DNA of 64,000 bases from Marchantia polymorpha subsp. ruderalis. Taxonomy: Eukaryota > Streptophyta > Marchantiopsida > Marchantiales > Marchantiaceae. The stretch lies in NCBI GenBank assembly GCA_037833965.1, contig AP031355.1, forward strand, positions 14,843,501 to 14,907,500, read 5' to 3'. A program made the position numbers and the translations under genes. Shown piece by piece: positions 5,316 to 64,000 of this stretch. Numbering within the stretch: position 1 is the first letter of the stretch; each line of letters begins with the position of its first letter. The notes under the pieces are model-generated. The model was not told where the DNA came from and ran no database searches. It saw nothing but the letters and a program-made list of their open reading frames with translations.

Positions 5316-8300
5316 ATGCCAACGCTGTTCAAGCAGCTGCAGACTGCTCGGGATCACGAGCCCCCGGCGCCTGTGAGCCCTGTGCCGGACAAGGGCAGCT
5401 CGAAATCCTCGAGCAGTGGTCGCAAGGTCAGCCGGGCGTCGCAGGCGCGCGTGGAAGCGCGCAAGGAGTTCCTCAAGGTGACCACCAAAGGCACTCGCGA
5501 TGAGGCTTACACGAACCCCGAGAGCTTGCCCCCTCTGGACGATGCGTACAACAACTTCCAGCACATTTATCCCAAATTCGCTGAGACCTGGGCCGTGGAC
5601 GATCTCCGCGAACGCGAGTACTTCCATCTCGAAGAGGGTGAGCATGTGTGCATGGACTACTGTGGGTTCGGCCTCTTCTCCTACTACCAGCAGGTCCTCA
5701 ACAAAGCCTCGTCGTCCTTCGGCCTGGCTTACATCTCTGCCAATCTTCCGACCCATGCTCTCTATGGAGCTGCCGAGGAGGGCACGGCCGAAGCGTACAT
5801 CCGGAAACGGGTGATGGATTATTTGAATGTCAGTGATCGAGAGTATAGCATGGTGTTTACGGCCAGCAGGGGCTCTGCGTTCAAGCTCCTGGCAGAATCC
5901 TATCCTTTCCATCTCAATCAGAGGCTGCTCACCGTGTACGACTTTGAGAGTGAGGCCGTGAACTGGATGGGGGACTGCGCGAAGCAGAAGGGCGCAAAAA
6001 TAATGAGTGCCTGCTTTAAGTGGCCGTCTCTCAGAGTGGGCACGAGTGATCTGAAGAAGCAGTTGCAGGAGAAGAAGAAAAAGGGCGAGTCTGCCAAGGG
6101 TCTCTTTGTGTTCCCCGTGCAATCGCGCATGACCGGGGCCAAGTATTCGTATCAGTGGATGTCTCAAGCTCAGCAAAACAAGTGGCACGTGCTTCTGGAT
6201 GCCTCAGCTCTAGGTCCGAAAGACATGGATTCCTTGGGCCTGTCACTCTTCAGGCCGGATTTTATCGTCAGCTCCTTCTACAAAGTGTTCGGCACAGATC
6301 CCACGGGTTTTGGGTGCCTGTTCATAAAGAAATCTGCCCTTCACAGTCTGCACAATTCGTCTCGGGCACGAGCTGTGGGCATGGTGAGAATCGTCTCTAT
6401 CAGTAAAAACCCAACCGACGGGCCGGAAGAGAGGGAAGCCGAGGACGAAGACTTCCAGCAAAGTGCCTGGCAATTGGATCAGCAAGCCAGGATGAGCTCG
6501 TTTTCCGGCCCAGTTTCCTCGTTCTACGCAGAAGCTGATGCGAAGAAATTGAAATCTTTCGTCAATCAGGATAACAATTATCACGCTGCGTCGAAATTGC
6601 CCAAGAGCAATGGGAGACGGGTCGGTGAGATTGAGAACTCCGGGCAGTTGAGAAGGGTGATCGAAATCGAAGAGGAAGCTTATGCCGATGAAATACACAG
6701 CGGGCGGTTCAGCGGGCGGCTCAGCAGTGGGTATCACAACCGCCAGATGGGAGGAATTGAACAAATGAATGAAGTCGAGTACAGCGGAGAGTTCAACAAA
6801 TCGCGATACGACCTGGACTCGGAGCGGAGGGGTCGGAGGTCCAGCGAAATCGAAGAGGTTGTGCCGAAAAGTGGACTGATCACGAGACCTCGCTCATCTT
6901 TCGGAAGTAGCTCTGGCGAGATCGAAGAGGTCATGGAGCAAAAACCTCGCAGAATAAGCCTTCGTGAACAGCTCCATGAGCCTCAGACGAGTCCTCTGAA
7001 AACTGTGAGTCAGATTCTGCACGAGGATGACGATCCACTGACAGCGTCTTCTTCCGCCAGATTTTACAGCGCCCCTCCCAGACGGTCTTACAGGATGGAC
7101 GACCACGACGATGACGACGAGCTCTCGCAAACTCCGGTTATCAATGATAGAAGAGCAGGCGATAGTGATGACAGCGGGGGCGAGGATTATGAAGACTGTA
7201 GAGATTCTAGCTTTAGAAATGGCAGAATGGGCGGGGCCAGAGGCCAGTACGACTTAAGCCCTGACGTAGGGGTGTACAGCGGGTCCACCTCGGACGATAG
7301 ATTTGACTCGAATTTAGATACGAGTCTCATCGAGGAGGAGATCGAGGAGAGGGAGTTTTCTAGAACAGCTCTCAGTGACATAGAGGAGGAAAAGGGTGAG
7401 GGTGAAGGTGAGGGTGAAGACACGGTTTGGGACCAGAGCGATTATGATGATAGAGGGGCTGAACAGAGATCCGGTCTTGAAGCAACGGAGAGAGGGATTG
7501 CATATTCTGGGGAATTTCGGACTGGGATGGGCCATGCTCCAGCTGCAGCACACGAAATTGAAGACGTGAGGAAGATAGAGGACGCCGAGGAGAAAGCGGA
7601 GCGAGTAAAGAATGTACAGCCGCAACCCGTAATGGCGGAGAAGAGAAATGTGGAGCCGCCAGCTGTAGCTCAAAAGGAGACGAGAACTGTGGAGGGTATC
7701 AAGGCAAGACTTGCGAGGTTTGTCGGAAGGGCCAGCTTTCGCAGGCATTCTGGGAAGGAAACAAGCGATTCCAAAGAGTTTGGAGTAAAAAGACCTGTTA
7801 ATAAGATTCAGAGTTTGGACAGTGGAAAGGGCCAGCGTGAAGAAGCTGAGGGTAATCTGCAACCGAAATCAGATGCTCCTTTGAACAAGCACCAAGCCCC
7901 CTTAGCACAACCGGAATTTCTAGCACAGGAAGCCTCAGATGTTTCGGAAGGTACATCTTCTGAAGCGCGAAAAAACGCCAATGGTGACGTCAAAAGTGGA
8001 GGTTTGAGTCCTGCTCTTCCTACTCCTGAAAAAATTCATGAAAGCGTTGGCCAAGCTAGTGGCAGTGACAGCGAGGCTGAACCTGCTGCCTCCAAAGAGA
8101 TTGTCCGTCCGAGCGTTCAGGATGGAGCAAGTTCGAAAGCTTCGAAAGTTGTTCCAGCTTCATTTGATGCAGGAGAGGAAGTACATAGTGAGTTCTCAGA
8201 GCAATGTTCTCCGAGGGACTTGCCTGCGCATCCTCTAGACAATGCTGCCTCTCCTGACACGAGTGAGGATGGTGCGACTTCAGAAAGTAAGGCAGCCATC

Positions 8301-10351
8301 ATTGATTCGGGGAATAGAAGAACGCCTGCCACCGGACCAAGCTCCAACTTCTCACATGTGGATGGCAGGTCAAACCAGACAGAGGACGACGAGGGCTTGT
8401 GGAATGGACCAGAAGAATTGAGAAGATCTGGCAGGTGGAGTCCTGATCAAGCTGCACCTGCAGGCTCTCCCCGGGACGGTAGCATGGATGATGAACTTGA
8501 TTCTAGACCCGCAGATTCGAGTCTCTGTGCCCCTCAATCTACCAATGTCGCTGCGCAGGCTCTACAACATGCTCTCTTGTTTCGTGCGGATGGAGGAGGA
8601 ACACCTTATGAGTCCGGTGAGGAGAATTATATTACAATACTACCTGGCAGCAGAAGTGGAAAAAATTGGGATCGAATTCCTGAACCTGTAAATGAGTCTC
8701 CAGATTCTGCCAGACAAAGGGATAGCAAATCTTCTCTTGAAGAATTACCGGACACGCCAAGTCCAAGTCCAGCTGTTGGGAAAGGGATGGATAAGCAAGT
8801 CAGTACAGACGCTTCACCGGTCGAGGTCGCTGAATCGTCGGAGGTTTGGGAAAGACCGAGATCCTCTGGACAGGATGATACGGAGAAAGCATTTGATACT
8901 TCACCTCAGTCACCAAGGAGTGAGTATTCTGAAAGCAGAAGGGGAGCTAATTCTACAGCACTCTATCTCAGGGCTACTCCTCGGTCTAGTGCCAGCACAC
9001 CCAACAACGCTACCAGCAGTTATCAGACGGAAAGAAGCATCACGGAGGATTTGAGTTTTGACGAAGCAGATTTTCACGATTCCAAGGACCAACGTGGGAT
9101 GAATGGGTCTTCGGATGACTTGCGTAGTGGCAGAACCCTGTCAAGAGACGTGGACCTTGATGAGAATATGTTCACCTCATCAACAAGAAGGAATACACTA
9201 GCAGAGGATCTTGCTAGAGTTGATCTGCAAGATAGTGATGATGAGTCATTTTATCAAGCCCAGTATGACCGTGATTCCTATCATGGATCAAGCACTTCCC
9301 GGTGAGTTGCAAACTCATGGAACGTTTCATATTGCAGCTGAGTCATTGTAATCCATTGAGTCGGGAATTGGTGGCTAATGGTCTCAAGCAACCAGCTTGA
9401 TGTCTTCAAGATGTCACACATGTCGTTTTACCTTGAAATCGAACTGTGGATCGGCAGAAACTCTTGACTCTACTATACTTCACAAGCTTCTTGTTTCATA
9501 TTCTCACTGTAATGGTCTGACTCTGTCGCATCATGTCAAAGGTGAAAAAGTTGCTGAAGTTTTCCTCTAGTCTTTCGGGGCCACAAACTAAGGGATCATG
9601 CATTTCAATTGCTCACATGTTTCGTAGTCTTCTCTTCAGGTACTTTGGAGAAGATGCTGCCCCGTCTGCGTGTTATCAAGAGGAGGAGTCAGATGACGAT
9701 TTTGAGGAGGGGGAGGAGGTGGGAAACGGCGACCTAAGGCAACCCAAAATAGTGTGCAAGGGCCTTGATCTGGCTGATTCATTAGGGCTTACCAAGACAA
9801 ACTACCGATTACGGTACCTGATTAATTGGCTGGTCAACTCTCTCCTCACGCTGCGACATCCTAGTCCAAATGATAGAGGAACTGCCTTGGTCCGCATCTA
9901 TGGCCCCAAAGTGAAATATGATAGAGGGGCAGCGGTGTCCTTCAACTTGTTTGATTGGAAGGGAGTGTTTATTCAGCCGGGTTTGGTACAAAGACTTGCT
10001 GACAGAAGTAATATCTCGTTGGGAGTAGGCCGACTTTGCAACATCGTGGATCCAGATCTGTCTCCAGATTTTTTGGCAGAGAAGGAGCGGTGGGGTGGAA
10101 CCGAAAGAAGTGACCATGGTAAAGAAGGCACTCCTTATTGTGCCGGAAGGTCAGATGGTGGAAAGTCGTCATCTGCCGGGAAGTGGGACTCTCTTACCAT
10201 CCCTGTAGTAACAGCTGCCATGGGTTTTGTGACTAACTTTGAAGACGTATACAGGCTGTGGGCTTTCTTGGCAAAATTTTTGGATGCAGATTTTGTATCT
10301 AAAGAGGTGTGGAGATACCATTCTTTAAATCAGCAAACAGTAGTTGTGTAA
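5316..10351 (+). CDS. MOCOS-like PLP-dependent transferase superfamily protein, two exons
   Basis: Exons 5316-9301 and 9640-10351 join in frame through a split Arg codon, giving about 1565 residues. Residues about 40-380 form a class-V aminotransferase / molybdenum-cofactor-sulfurase-like fold, with the expected PLP lysine at about residue 323 in SSFYKVFG, followed by PTGFGCLFIKKS. Exon 2 encodes the C-terminal block typical of the plant MOCOS-like subfamily (KIVCKGLDLADSLGL, YGPKVKYDRGAAVSFNLFDW, NISLGVGRLCNIVDP). Between them lie about 950 acidic, Ser-rich, probably disordered residues with repeated EIEE-type motifs, which makes the protein much longer than the roughly 900 residues I recall for flowering-plant relatives. 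True Moco sulfurases transfer sulfur from cysteine to Mo; activity of this subfamily is not established, and no MOSC domain is seen. The chosen start is the first ATG after the leader acceptor. Confidence 0.93.
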
Positions 10352-30424: not shown

Positions 30425-30720
30425 GGTTCAGTTGTGTTGCGAAATTACAGCCATTTCCCGCAGGCCCTGCGGTTTGAGATCGAGTCTAACCCACCAAATT
30501 TGGCATTGTCATGTTTGCATTGGTTCAGTGTGTTGCGAAATTGCAGCCATTTCCCGCAGGCCCTGCGGTTTGAGATCGAGTCCAACCCACCAAATTTGGC
30601 ATTGTCATGTTTGCATTGGTTCAGTTGTGTTGCAAAATTACAGCCATTTCCCGCAGGCCTGCGGTTTGAGATCGAGTCCCACATACCAAATTTGGCATTG
30701 TCATGTTTGCATTGTCATTG
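30425..30720. repeat. three tandem copies of a unit of about 96 bp
   Basis: Copies begin near 30435, 30531 and 30628 (periods 96 and 97) and are more than 90 percent alike. The third copy lacks one C in a GC-rich stretch and diverges at its end. The copies abut without spacers. Open frames on both strands across the block are by-products of the repetition. It may be a minisatellite or an internal part of a larger element. Confidence 0.9.
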
Positions 30721-57300: not shown

Positions 57301-58799
57301 TACATATTCTATATGTTTAGAAGGTTTCCGTCTCTGTTAGATGTATCGTCAGTGGGTATATCCATGTGGATTCCATCAGGTATAGAACAACCTGAGAAGG
57401 GTACATACCAGACATAAAAACTAAATTTTACTCCGTTATCATTTTCATCTCCTGCGTAAGATCCTGATCAAGTTTTTGAGGGGTTAGGAACTTATGAGGT
57501 TGCTTGCTATCGGTTTCTTTGTCCCCAATTGCTGCAACTAATTTTGCCAAATAATCAGTACTAGAGTAAGTGCATTGTTCAAATACACCTGCTTTTTGTC
57601 GTCAAGTTCCGTCGTGTATATGTCTGTTGGCGTAAAATGGAAGTTACTATTTTTATTCTGCTGCAAATGTCATCAGTGTTTGCTTGCATATTCAGCACAC
57701 TTTAGACCAGGGTTGAATTGTTACTTCGGGTTTCTCATGAGAAGCAACTGTATTACAGGATCAAACTTGAAAATCTTACCTGACTAATCTCACTTCCTGG
57801 CTATCTCATGTCGAGCCATTTTTGAAAAATTCTGTTGTCGACCTTTTACTTTTGATCGCTTTCAGAATAAATTATTAATGAAATGCAATCAAAATCATAA
57901 CGCTCAGTTTTTTACATTTTTATAGTGGAGTGAACTGCATACCTCATTCCACAACATTTCTGTTGTACTCTTGGTCTAATATTCATGATCAGACCTGTTT
58001 CCAGTCTTTTGAGTGTTCTTTCTCGTATACCTTGTACCAGCAGAAAGGTGTATTCTGATTTTTTCTACATATAAAAACTGTATCCCCATGTGCAGTCAAT
58101 CCTTATGCTCTCGATATTTTACTCTATGGTAATACTTAATTCTCAGTAACATTTTGTGTGTTGTGGAATTTGTCCTTTTATCAAAGAGACGGTTAAGCAT
58201 TTCATTTCTTTTTCTACCGATCTTACAATGCATGAGTTCATGTCGCATGTACACAATATTTACATTGCAATGTAAAATAAAGAAGAGGACTTTTTATGTT
58301 TCTAAGAAACTCTCTGATTTGTCTGACTGTAGGGTCGGATGTGAGGGAACAGCATTTGGGGCTCCTATTGTTGTGCAGCGTAGCTAGAACTGTGCTGATA
58401 TCTCTCAGAAATGACGATGCCTTAAACGTGGCCTCATTTCCAGTACTGAAACAGCATGTTCTTCAACAAGTTCCGTTTGACTAAGCATGGTATGTGCTAA
58501 AATTTTACTTGTTTTCCATTCGCTTGAACTAGGAAGGTGGCACATAGTTCATACATGTATTGCAGCTTTGATTGACACTGTTGCTTACCTTCTACAAAAT
58601 CAGGAATACCGTAGGCGGGTGGACTGTGACGTTTGTGAGTAAGAGGGTTCTCAAGTGATCACTGAAGGCGATATACTTGCACCAACAGAAGCGGCGTTGA
58701 CAGTGTTCATCGCAGAAATAACATGACGCTCACTCGAGAACAGGGCTCAGCTGACTTCAACCATCAGGGACCCTCATTCTGAAGACATATAGAGATATT
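54329..58799. other. AT-rich stretch, possible leader intron, no gene seen
   Basis: No coding signature appears on either strand. If the donor at 54328 is used, most of this is intron. Several acceptors lie close upstream of the start codon, for example after ACAAAATCAG near 58603 and GGGCTCAG near 58750. A 32-bp direct repeat lies at 55590-55651. Confidence 0.5.
55590..55651. repeat. imperfect direct repeat of 32 bp, two copies
   Basis: Both copies start with GCCTTCGAAC and continue with similar sequence (GTGAACATTTATTGTG versus GTAAACATTCACTGTA). They sit in AT-rich DNA in the possible leader intron. Confidence 0.7.
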
Positions 58800-61700
58800 A
58801 TGGCAGATACTGTCATAGATTCTACATCACCTTCTAGAGGTCGTGATTTCGGCCCTGGTGATTTTGTTGAGGTTAATGGTGGCCTTGAGGTCTTCCGCCA
58901 TGCCTGGGTTGCAGCACAGGTGTGCATTCCTACTATTGATGTCATTGTCAATCTTTTCTTTCCTTGAAAGTACCATGGTGAATTATCTACCTTTTTTCCA
59001 AGTTTTGTCTCTCATTTTACTTTTTTGATAATCGCAGATCATCAGGGTTGAGGAGATGCAAGGATTCTCACGTTACCTCATATCATATGACTCTTACAAA
59101 GACACTCGTGAGTATACTAATCTCATGCAAAATATGAAAGGGTTGATTTCATTGAAGACTGTATTTGCTAGTCGCATGGTTGAAATAACATAAGGCTCTG
59201 TTCTGCAGTTGAACACTGGCTGGCATGCGAAGAACCTGATGCTAACATATCAGAAGCTTTTGACTATCCTCATGGTGGTACCATTCGTCCAAAACCACCA
59301 AAACAACTTGAACTTGCGTTGCATGAGGGGGATACGAGTCTGATTCCCTTCAAGGAAGTATGTGTGAATGATACGGTGGACGCTGCCATTGAGAATGCTT
59401 GGTGGCCTGGGAGAATCGTCAAAGTCATGGCTAAACAGACACTGGTAAACTCATATCCGCCACAGTTTTTAAACTGAATTTTTTGGTCGCAATTTATTTT
59501 AGTACCCTTTAAATATGATGAATTGCCTGGAATTTTAGTAAAGACAGTATTTAATATACTCGTCTCTGCAGATCGCATTGAATGACGGCAGGGAGGTGAC
59601 TATGAACATGTCCAAACTAAGGAGACATGTAGATTGGACGGGGGATGACTGGTCTTTGCCAGGGCATGAGATAACATTCGTATGTGAAACATTTTATTTT
59701 CAAAACCTTTTTTTTTTTTTGGTGTCTTTGTGGTAGATAGGATGTTACAATATAACACAACTAACAAAATCTGTATAGTTCTAGTATTATTTCGAGTCAA
59801 TCAAAATATTTCTTATTTGAAATTTTGACTTGGAACTCTGCTGTCTTTAGCTCGGTGTGTACATGAACAATAATATGATGTACATCACGTTGAGTGCAGA
59901 CACTTATTGTGGAAGAAGATTCGAAGGTGACATTCCGACCTTACGTTGGTGAAGGCTTGTTAAGTCCTAACAGACACATGGTTACTCGCTTGACGAAGAA
60001 TATGACAACGCATGTGCCTTCATTTGCTAGAGCCCTCGTGAAACGGTGTTTGGGCCCAGCTGGCAAATTGGTGAGCTGACAAGAACATTTCCTTGGATTG
60101 CAGTTTGATTCTCATACAATTCTTGTCGTCTCATCTTGGATCTAATTGATCTCTTATGTTTGCCCACATGATGGATGGTATGCAGTCTTTTCCAGTGATG
60201 TTTATGAAGCAGTTCATCAAAGGAAGAGAAGGAGTAGCAACTCTGGAAGATGCCAAAGGGGCCAAGTGGGAAGTTGAATGGGCTGCGTGGGAGCAATCTG
60301 GCAGAAGGCTTGCCCTTACCCGTGGGTGGCCTGAATTCGCTGAATCACATCGAGCACAAATAGGTGATGTTTTGCTCATTGAAATCCTGTCTCGGGATCA
60401 CTTCAAGGTCCGATTTATCAACTCCAAACTCAGGCGGGCAATCAGATCTCGTTCCCATTCTAAACAGGTACTTCTTGCAGCTCTTCAAATATCTGTAGTG
60501 ACTAGCTGGAAACGAAAGTTTTATATATATAATCTGTTTGATATCGATTTTGAAGGTGGTGTTTTAGATCTGACATGACTCTCTCACATGACTTTTGAGC
60601 AAACTCTTCACTTAAAGCCTTTCGGTTTTTATGGTTACAGGCCAAGTGCAAAAATAGGGCTCGACCTGAGAAAAGCAGGAGTGATGATGATAGGAAGGTG
60701 AAGAAAACCTATGGAGATACGTATTCGAGCAAGAAACTGAATGGTGCCAGCCAGCCACTAAGGTTTGAGGGTGGAGGAGAGAAGACTCCAAGCCAGAGTA
60801 CGCAAACAGCAAGTACAACGCTTGAGGAGTCTTCTGCCTCCGACAAGACTCTGTATGAACAAGGAGGCAAATCGGGGAAGGAAGATGACTTTGAGGAATG
60901 GGACCTACAAAGATCATCTGGATATCCTTCCTGGAGATCTCTTTCACAGGGCCATGGTTCTGCTTCAGAGATGACCTCTCTGTCCTCCATATCACGAGCA
61001 AGAACTAATTTTCGAAAACATAGTATCCGCGGGGGGCAATGTCCACTTCCTTGGGCTTCTGTAACTAATGGTGCACAGCAAACGTTGAGTTCACCAGTGA
61101 GGCCCCCGAAGTCCGGATCAGCGCTCCCGTCTAAGAGCCCTATCTCTGGCAGGACAAGATTTCATCAAGTGGTTAGCAGGCCGAATTCTTCCACAGTTGT
61201 GTATTGCCAATCAACGAAGAGCAAATGTTCGCAGTATTGCGTTCAAGGTCACCAGTTCTGCTTGTGGCATATTCTTGAGGACCCTCATGCTCCTTACAAG
61301 CAGTGTGATTACGTTGAAGCTTCATCAAAAGATAGATGTCGCTTCCCTGTGAACCTCCAGATTGAAGATAACAGGTGAAACCTTCGTTATGTTATCCTTT
61401 GGTCGAGAAACTCATGTAACGGTTACACAACTTAAGTGAAAGAAATGCAACTAATGCGTATGACTGCTAGTGGATCCCGTGGAGAGGTTGTCTACAAAGC
61501 CTTGTCGTAGGGGTTTATTCTTCAACCAAATGTTTAATATCAACATCACTTGCATGTCTACTGCATGATGCTCACAAAGCCCAAATTTTGTTTACATTGT
61601 GGACCTACCTCAAGAATAGAATCATCTGTTGAGAGCAAAGTCATGTTGTTCAAGATGTATGATTTCCAACATACTTATAATTGCCTTCACGTTACCATAT

Positions 61701-64000
61701 ATGTTAGTACTAACCTATTATTTGTCCTCATTTCAGGTACTGCCAAATGCACAACAACAATCATGGATTTACTCTAAGTCCTCAAACACTGAAGAAACAA
61801 CAAGGTGTGGAACGTCCTCCAATAGGAGAGTTCACGCTTCTGGTTCTAGCTGCAACGGTGGCGAACGATGTGGAGGTGAAGGAGCCTCCTAAGATTGTGC
61901 GCACTGTAGAAGCAAACAATTACATCCAAGTCAGGAGTATTTCCAACGATCCAAAGCAAGTAGCTATGGACATTAGAAAGAATTCTTCAACTGCAGTTAT
62001 TACAGTTTCGAGCAAATGTGCCAAAGCCAATGGGCCAGGATTCGTCAATTCATCAGGAGACAAATGCCGCGTCGTGGAAGAGCAGTTTCTGGGCAGATCT
62101 TGCAGTACAGATGAAATCATTGGTGAACTTGGTGCATTGTCTACCTTTGGTCAGATCAGGAAAGAGGACCTGAATGGGACTTTGAACATTTCGAAGAGAC
62201 TCAAATCTGATCACACAGGGTTGCCAGGTAGCACCCTAGACAAGAATGGACTCGTATGCCAACGTACTGCAGCCAATGCGGAACAAATCTCCGCATCTAA
62301 AGGAAGAAGTCCATCAACTGGAGCTGGACTGTCAGAAGTGTTGACACTGATCCCTGGAGGGGCTACTTCAAGTAGCAAGTCCGCGATAGATGGTGCTCTG
62401 CCCTTAAGTAAGAAACCAATTATGGGCATAGAGAAAGTCTGCAGAAGTAATCCCTTATTTGCCCAAAGTAGTGCTGTAAAAAAGAAGTCCACCCTGAACA
62501 ACATACTCTGTCCTATAGATATTGGACAGATGGATTTTTCTCGGGTTGGGCTAAATTGTGTTCCTTCCAGGCTGTCAGCCTCCTCAGCAATCACTGGTCC
62601 AAAGGAAACTGTTGTGAAAAGTCCTTTGTGGTTCTTCCGAAGTGTCGATCTAGGTGAGATGGATCCTACAAGGATGGGGCTAAAGTGTTCATTTGGTGAG
62701 ACGAAGGCAGCCTCAAAACTGACCATGCCAAAGCGGAAACAGAAGGAAGATACAGTGGGACCGGAGGCATCCAGCGACAAACTACCAGGAAAGAGGCGAT
62801 TCTTTTCTCAGTATGTCGGTGTTCGAAAGCGACCTTGGGGTGCTTATGGAGCTGAAATTCGGACTCCTGAGGGTAGGCGTTTGTGGCTAGGGACTTTCAC
62901 CACAGAGGAGGCAGCTGCACGAGCATATGATCATGCCGCTAGATTGTATCGTGGGGAGGGTGCAATGACCAACTTCAATTCTGTGGGATATCCGGTTGAA
63001 CCAGTTGATGAGAAATCTGGCCTGAAGGAGGCTCCCAAGAAACGGAGGTCTTCAAACAATAAACGCAAAGATGATGAATCGGCTTCTAGCCCAGTCGGTG
63101 AAGGCAAGAGACCTAAGGTTCAGAAAGCAGAGGCACAGAGTGCTGGTTCTGGCACTCCACCGACTGAAAATTTTGTACACACAGAAGCAAGTGAGGCAGG
63201 AAAATTTGGAAATTTCCTGGTTGATCAAGGGAATCAAAATAGTGAAGGTGGCACCTCTGACACATCTTTGGCAGCTCAACAAGAGAAGGAGGGGATTACG
63301 TCTCTGCAAACTCCAGAAGGTCTGTCCTCTGCGGGATGCGCCCATGTTCCTTCTACTGGAGAAGATTTTGAAGCAAGTAGGTCAGCTGCGGGAGATCGAG
63401 GAGTTCAAACAGTTGATAGTGAGCAGATGAAAGAAACGAAGGCTAAGATTGGAGAAGAGGCAGACTTAATTGTGGAGCACACTGACACAAGCAAGATTGC
63501 CGAGTTACCCGAAGACGGTTATCAAGCCACTGAGCACGATATGCAGGTTGACTCCATACACGCTGGGTCCTGCGGTGGGAATACGGTTTCGCGGCCCAGT
63601 CGTCAGAAGAAGTTCAAGAGAATCTCCACAACAGTGGTTCATGACTCGGACAGTTCATCTGGTAACTCTTCAGATGAACGGAAGGAATGCGAAGAAACGT
63701 CTGTGAAAGAGGAGGACGCAACTTTGTCAGGTGAAGAAAGTCCACAGAGCGGATCATCAAGATTGGAGTTGACGGAGGAGGAAGGTGTGCAGGTGTGCAC
63801 AAATATTTCTGAGCCTCCTGTTAGAAACTTTGCAATTAGAGAATTGGTATCTCCGGAGAAAGTTAGAAGGGAATTCAATTTCAGGGGTTTAAGGAGAGTG
63901 TCATCACCTAGATTTGAACCCATTGAGAAGGAGACTAACTTTACGGGTGTAAGAAAATCTGCATCAGGGAAATATGAAGCCAGTGTATATGACAGGAATA
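58800..64000 (+). CDS. Agenet-Agenet-B3-C3Hc3H-AP2/ERF fusion protein, eight exons, cut off by the window
   Basis: Exons 58800-58919, 59038-59107, 59209-59444, 59572-59679, 59900-60070, 60186-60467, 60641-61374 and 61737 to the edge join in frame, giving 1328 residues so far. Residues 18-70 ([20 protein letters not shown]) and 110-168 ([28 protein letters not shown]) are paired Agenet/Tudor-like modules linked by IRPKPP. Residues 215-310 are a B3 DNA-binding domain ([43 protein letters not shown]). Residues 516-581 are a C3Hc3H zinc finger, completed across the last intron ([33 protein letters not shown]). Residues 932-990 are an AP2/ERF domain ([37 protein letters not shown]). Basic stretches flank it. 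Two AP2-like starts appear at 1288 and 1308. Likely a nuclear chromatin-reading transcription factor. ATG 58800 follows an in-frame stop. Confidence 0.93.
59708..59720. repeat. poly-T run in intron 4 of the fusion gene
   Basis: Thirteen T lie inside the intron between 59679 and 59900, upstream of the branch-point and acceptor region. Confidence 0.85.

Follow-up and report, generated by a model that had tools for sequence, protein, structure and literature searches.

A Marchantia polymorpha gene uniting tandem Agenet, B3, zf-C3Hc3H and AP2 domains, a probable member of the TcA3Bz1 clade

Exon structure and domain order of the gene

The window analysed here, meaning the whole stretch of 64,000 nucleotides at C6:14843501-14907500 of the Marchantia polymorpha subsp. 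ruderalis genome (contig AP031355.1), carries near its end, on the + strand, one gene whose spliced protein contains Agenet, B3, zf-C3Hc3H and AP2 domains. We re-derived the exons from the DNA sequence and then joined them; positions are given in window coordinates. The genome searched comprised 241 Mb in nine contigs, the searches were read exon by exon and match counts are lower bounds.

The original prediction of eight exons in continuous frame from 58800 was borne out: all seven introns in the window are GT-AG and the reading frame is unbroken. Exon 1 (58800..58919) holds the start codon, an ATG at 58800 that supplies the first Met in the open frame from 58755, together with the start of Agenet 1, and ends at a GT donor. 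The next exons all have AG/GT borders and keep the frame: exon 2 (59038..59107) encodes Agenet 1, exon 3 (59209..59444) the end of Agenet 1 and the start of Agenet 2, exon 4 (59572..59679) Agenet 2, exon 5 (59900..60070) a linker and the start of B3, exon 6 (60186..60467) most of B3, and exon 7 (60641..61374) a linker and most of the zf-C3Hc3H finger. The interval first given for the gene reached 64000, which proved too short. Exon 8 (61737..65648), of which 61737..64000 lies in the window, lies within a 1334-codon open frame, and two more exons (65970-67171 and 67381-67394) follow beyond the window end. An in-frame donor at 65649 is spliced to an acceptor before 65970, and a second donor after 67171 pairs with an acceptor before 67381. 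The complete model thus comprises ten exons encoding 2282 residues and stops at window coordinate 67394; its last two introns were picked by splice motif and frame only, and the first of them has other candidate sites. A + strand open frame at 58281-58484 ends 315 bases before the start codon. If it is the final exon of a gene upstream, as it may be, there would be little space for a promoter.

Pfam was run on a provisional 1900-residue model that stopped at a codon within the intron past the window end. Four families exceeded their gathering scores, in the predicted order: Agenet (residues 20-94, E 2.6e-8), B3 (230-313, E 2.9e-12; 60053..60419), zf-C3Hc3H (518-580, E 4.8e-12; 61205..61755) and AP2 (best stretch 932-980, E 4.8e-12). 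No fifth Pfam family was seen at E <=10 in this model, although HMMER filters remove most weak matches. Because domains are completed across introns, a chance reading frame is ruled out.

B3 domain, zinc finger and AP2 modules

The B3 domain had been said to span two exons, and the exon 5/6 intron indeed falls after residue 235. As an argument against a chance frame this is thin, because only ~6 B3-matched residues come from exon 5. When the exon-6 part was compared with solved structures by phmmer, TEM1 (E 1.5e-4), RAV1 (4.3e-4) and NGA1 (1.1e-3) came first, and no ARF occurred among the 11 solved-structure matches at E <=10. Common ancestry with the ARF B3 has been proposed for the B3 of A3Bz proteins (PMC6781369). 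An ARF kinship was not supported here, where the order of matches is a phmmer ranking and not a tree.

The zf-C3Hc3H profile was matched over its entire length (1-62 of 62). Intron 7 falls at residue 573.7, within the finger at 518-580, so the split finger completed by the next exon is real, as the original prediction held. Its Cys/His residues at 518, 525, 536 and 539 and at 551, 562, 576 and 579 could form two C3H sets. We take the finger to be of the KANSL2/INO80D type, whose full profile and Cys/His set the liverwort protein shares; by sequence, no solved-structure relative of the stretch was found at E <=10. At least two places in the genome match zf-C3Hc3H, this locus and C2:9935014, and the latter differs in having no listed B3 or AP2 match.

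A single AP2/ERF domain had been predicted. One canonical module, R1, is present, but it is accompanied by further AP2-like modules, giving six in total: R1, three divergent modules (R2, R3 and R5) and two degenerate ones (R4 and R6). R1 (residues 932-985, 62809..62970) is of the ERF type by Pfam, by a genome AP2 profile and by solved structures, among which ERF domains were closest (E 1.2e-16). R2 (residues 1307-1361) starts at 63934..64000 and is completed beyond the window. The Pfam scan of the whole 1900-residue model gave three AP2 stretches, counted at the lax limit of E 10. When the modules were scanned as separate pieces, Pfam AP2 E-values were 2e-10 for R1, 9.5e-5 for R2, 4e-5 for R3, 0.0078 for R5 and 0.1 for R6, with no AP2 match for R4, and R1 alone passed the gathering score. 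To build the genome AP2 profile, 17 phmmer hits in 15 loci were reduced to 11 by dropping repeats and lengths outside 45-75, and R1 was added. Scores on this profile were 85.9 bits for R1, which is not independent because R1 belongs to the training set, 31.2 for R2, 40.5 for R3, 6.1 for R4, 19.2 for R5 and 6.4 for R6; a seventh match was low-complexity, at -3.9 bits. Across 300 shuffled proteins the best score was 1.3 bits, with any match in 105 of the 300.

These scores bear on whether DNA binding is the main role of the AP2-like repeats other than R1, which together would recognise a long composite site. R2, R3 and R5 stand well above the <=1.3 bits of the shuffled proteins, and ANT-type AP2 repeats contact DNA otherwise than ERF domains do. 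Against such multivalent recognition, the spacing of the modules is long and irregular and nearly all of the ERF contact residues are missing. At the eight DNA-contact positions of AtERF1, R1 retained 7/8, R2 1/8 and R3 0/8, and none was kept at the alignment-covered positions of R4 (0/6), R5 (0/4) and R6 (0/4). R1 is therefore the only module to keep most of the ERF-type DNA-contact residues, and we regard multivalent binding by the others as unlikely.

Just ahead of R1, a 12-residue motif, G-x-M-D-x-x-R-x-G-L-x-C, occurs twice, at residues 837-848 (62524..62559) and 880-891 (62653..62688). Searched across the genome at E <=1, the 80-residue stretch with both copies matched itself only. The doubled-motif stretch, R4 and a 102-residue stretch after R5 gave only unrelated Pfam matches below cut-off.

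The tandem Agenet pair

The front end had been described as paired Agenet modules resembling a histone reader. The pair, placed at residues 18-172 (58851..59661, exons 1-4), stands because residues 7-172 align by phmmer to a solved tandem Agenet, 5zwz (sequence E 2.5e-6, stretch E 4.4e-5). Pfam on its own backs copy 1; copy 2 fails, with 13.0 bits and E 0.14. Other solved chains matched were 6ie5 (E 2.9e-6), 5zwx (residues 112-175) and AGDP3 (7yta; residues 115-174). Of these structures, 5zwz is AGD34 of AtAGDP1, and 5zwx is AGD12 of RsAGDP1 with H3K9me2, which is held by a cage of Tyr122, Trp127 and Phe144 with Glu149 (PMC6208443).

A working AGDP1-like H3K9me2 reader at this position would address a transcription factor to heterochromatin. 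The match to AtAGDP1 AGD34, together with those to 5zwx and 7yta, speaks for such a reader, as does the cage Glu, which is still Glu in the 5zwz alignment. The residues of the cage speak against it. The 5zwx alignment keeps one of the four, W127 (Trp129 here); Y122 becomes Ile124, F144 becomes Ala144 and Glu149 becomes Arg149. In the same alignment D124 is replaced by Asn126, and among the AGD1 contacts Glu45 corresponds to Leu29, Phe48 to Phe32 and Tyr53 to Val37 (Leu77 and Glu89 were not mapped). The 5zwz alignment, read by eye, retains two of four, Trp and Glu, with Tyr changed to Ile and Phe to Leu. Either alignment thus shows aliphatic residues in place of two of the three cage aromatics, and for that reason H3K9me2 reading of the AGDP1 type is unlikely. 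The resemblance to the tandem Agenets of AGDP1 and AGDP3 remains, while the histone-reader claim is weakened in its H3K9me2 sense, and delivery to heterochromatin by this route appears improbable to us. Binding of some other ligand by the pair is possible. AGDP1 further differs in having three Agenet pairs, and the available text of its report mentions no B3 or AP2 (PMC6208443).

Elsewhere in the genome, three Agenet sites (C7:27367350, C7:27659758 and C7:27719342) lie within ~350 kb on one contig, each followed downstream, by eye, by a second Agenet-like stretch in the same frame. They may form a local family of tandem-Agenet genes.

Copy number, published relatives and probable role

The gene appears to be single-copy. 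The N-terminal 313 residues gave seven matches in the genome at E <=1, namely its own six exons and the B3 of the RAV gene (E 0.54). A 590-residue AP2-repeat stretch gave 29 matches. One is the stretch itself; the remaining 28, none stronger than 1.8e-9, include two further modules of this gene. As for the species, an ARF exon in the genome is identical over 70 of 70 aligned residues (71-residue query) to PDB 6sdg, an auxin response factor chain from M. polymorpha ARF2, which fits M. polymorpha or a very near relative.

RAV/TEM proteins are not known to carry Agenet or C3Hc3H. They resemble the liverwort protein in having B3 and AP2 together, and among solved B3 sequences TEM1 and RAV1 come nearest. 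They differ in their single AP2, which lies N-terminal of B3, whereas several AP2 modules follow B3 here. The AP2-before-B3 order is the one described for RAV (PMC5873896), and the genome has such a gene at a separate locus, C3:26461551-26462255. Since the order is reversed and the RAV is another gene, RAV membership was rejected, in agreement with the earlier claim of a distinct order. At the RAV locus, in its own coordinates on contig C3, AP2 occupies 6552-6695 and B3 6954-7256, and a tail ends near 8954. This tail is AUX_IAA/PB1-like (AUX_IAA E 2e-4, 21.7 bits versus a cut-off of 22.7; PB1 E 0.046) and weakly matches the solved structures of IAA4 (E 0.12) and ARF5 (E 0.31). Land-plant RAVs have been said to lack PB1 (PMC5873896), but PB1 in bryophyte RAVs has already been reported (PMC11685440), and the tail was dropped as a side discovery.

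The implied novelty, with RAV/TEM as the only known AP2-B3 combination, did not survive comparison with the literature. A new AP2/EREBP subgroup was described in BMC Plant Biol in 2019, in which Taxus TcA3Bz1 has three AP2, one B3 and one zf-C3Hc3H, Ginkgo Gb_05581 has the same domains, and M. polymorpha MARPO_0093s0032 / PTQ32953.1 has three AP2, one B3 and one zf-C3Hc3H with an Agenet N-terminal of B3 (PMC6781369). The architecture of Agenet, B3, zf-C3Hc3H and AP2 is therefore known since 2019, and the surprise is limited because it is already in print. The liverwort gene has the features of the TcA3Bz1 type: B3 (230-313) precedes the first AP2 (at 932), the zf-C3Hc3H is in the same protein, and at least three AP2 modules are present, counting R1, R2, R3 and R5, the last three of which fall under the Pfam gathering score as isolated pieces. 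It resembles TcA3Bz1 and Gb_05581 in these respects and differs in its Agenet, which the available text mentions for neither of them (PMC6781369). With PTQ32953.1 it shares the species, an Agenet before B3, one zf-C3Hc3H and three AP2; the descriptions differ, one Agenet and three AP2 being published and a tandem Agenet and six AP2-like modules being seen here. Given the published architecture, copy number and species make the locus almost certainly MARPO_0093s0032 / PTQ32953.1.

The long inter-domain stretches without Pfam matches, in a model built from DNA, leave room for another explanation, in which two neighbours were wrongly joined, one with Agenet and B3 that ends near 60467, the other a C3Hc3H-AP2 gene downstream of it. 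The domain parts can exist separately, because Picea MA_10436317g0020 carries one AP2 and part of the set, and Physcomitrium patens has five proteins with three AP2, two of them with zf-C3Hc3H, all without B3 (PMC6781369). The exon 6/7 and 7/8 junctions are, however, in frame and GT-AG, and exon 8 supplies the rest of the zinc finger after intron 7. Moreover, B3, zf-C3Hc3H and AP2 repeats are united in the Taxus unigene and the Ginkgo gene (PMC6781369), and the Taxus unigene answers the objection for the B3-zf-AP2 part. Two wrongly joined genes thus seem very improbable.

We consider it likely that this is one gene, a liverwort member of the A3Bz (TcA3Bz1) clade and most likely MARPO_0093s0032 / PTQ32953.1, whose product would act as a sequence-guided nuclear regulator of chromatin or transcription. 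From the domains we infer a nuclear location, DNA binding and a regulatory role. The intact ERF-type R1 and the B3 would dock the protein on DNA and choose its sites. The zf-C3Hc3H, the remaining AP2-like modules and the tandem Agenet, which probably does not read H3K9me2 as AGDP1 does, would give chromatin or partner proteins surfaces to bind, and their combined action could amount to sequence-guided regulation of chromatin or transcription.

Several points weigh against this interpretation. The gene model is known here from DNA alone. The locus was equated with PTQ32953.1 by its architecture, copy number and species, and in the available text of PMC6781369 the joining of Agenet to B3 is supported by the M. 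polymorpha database entry alone, not by the Taxus unigene. For R4 and R6, sequence degeneration leaves the AP2 fold in doubt. A search of open-licence PMC papers by gene identifiers brought up PMC6781369 alone and found no DNA-binding, localisation or mutant studies. The gene is not mentioned in the available text of PMC6174852 or PMC9520294, and the 'AP2/B3 domain' genes MpREM1 and MpREM4 have other gene numbers (PMC6174852).

Outside the gene, a ~96-base unit is repeated three times in tandem at 30425-30714 of the window, with 94% matches.

The subgroup was not found in S. moellendorffii, Picea abies, 'P. tadae' or Gnetum, and no angiosperm member was known to its authors (PMC6781369). A bolder view, which we find doubtful but worth stating, is that the gene represents a deep land-plant regulator kept in liverworts and some gymnosperms and reported absent from angiosperms. 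A cage-less Agenet pair would have been reused beside B3, C3Hc3H, a single working ERF domain and as many as five AP2 modules serving as non-ERF surfaces, so that former DNA-binding domains would make up most of a chromatin scaffold. As described, members of the clade come from bryophytes and certain gymnosperms, with none found in angiosperms or Selaginella (PMC6781369). If the liverwort protein is a chromatin-guided transcription factor, its seemingly single-copy gene in an easily edited model plant would make the function of this little-studied multi-domain clade directly testable.

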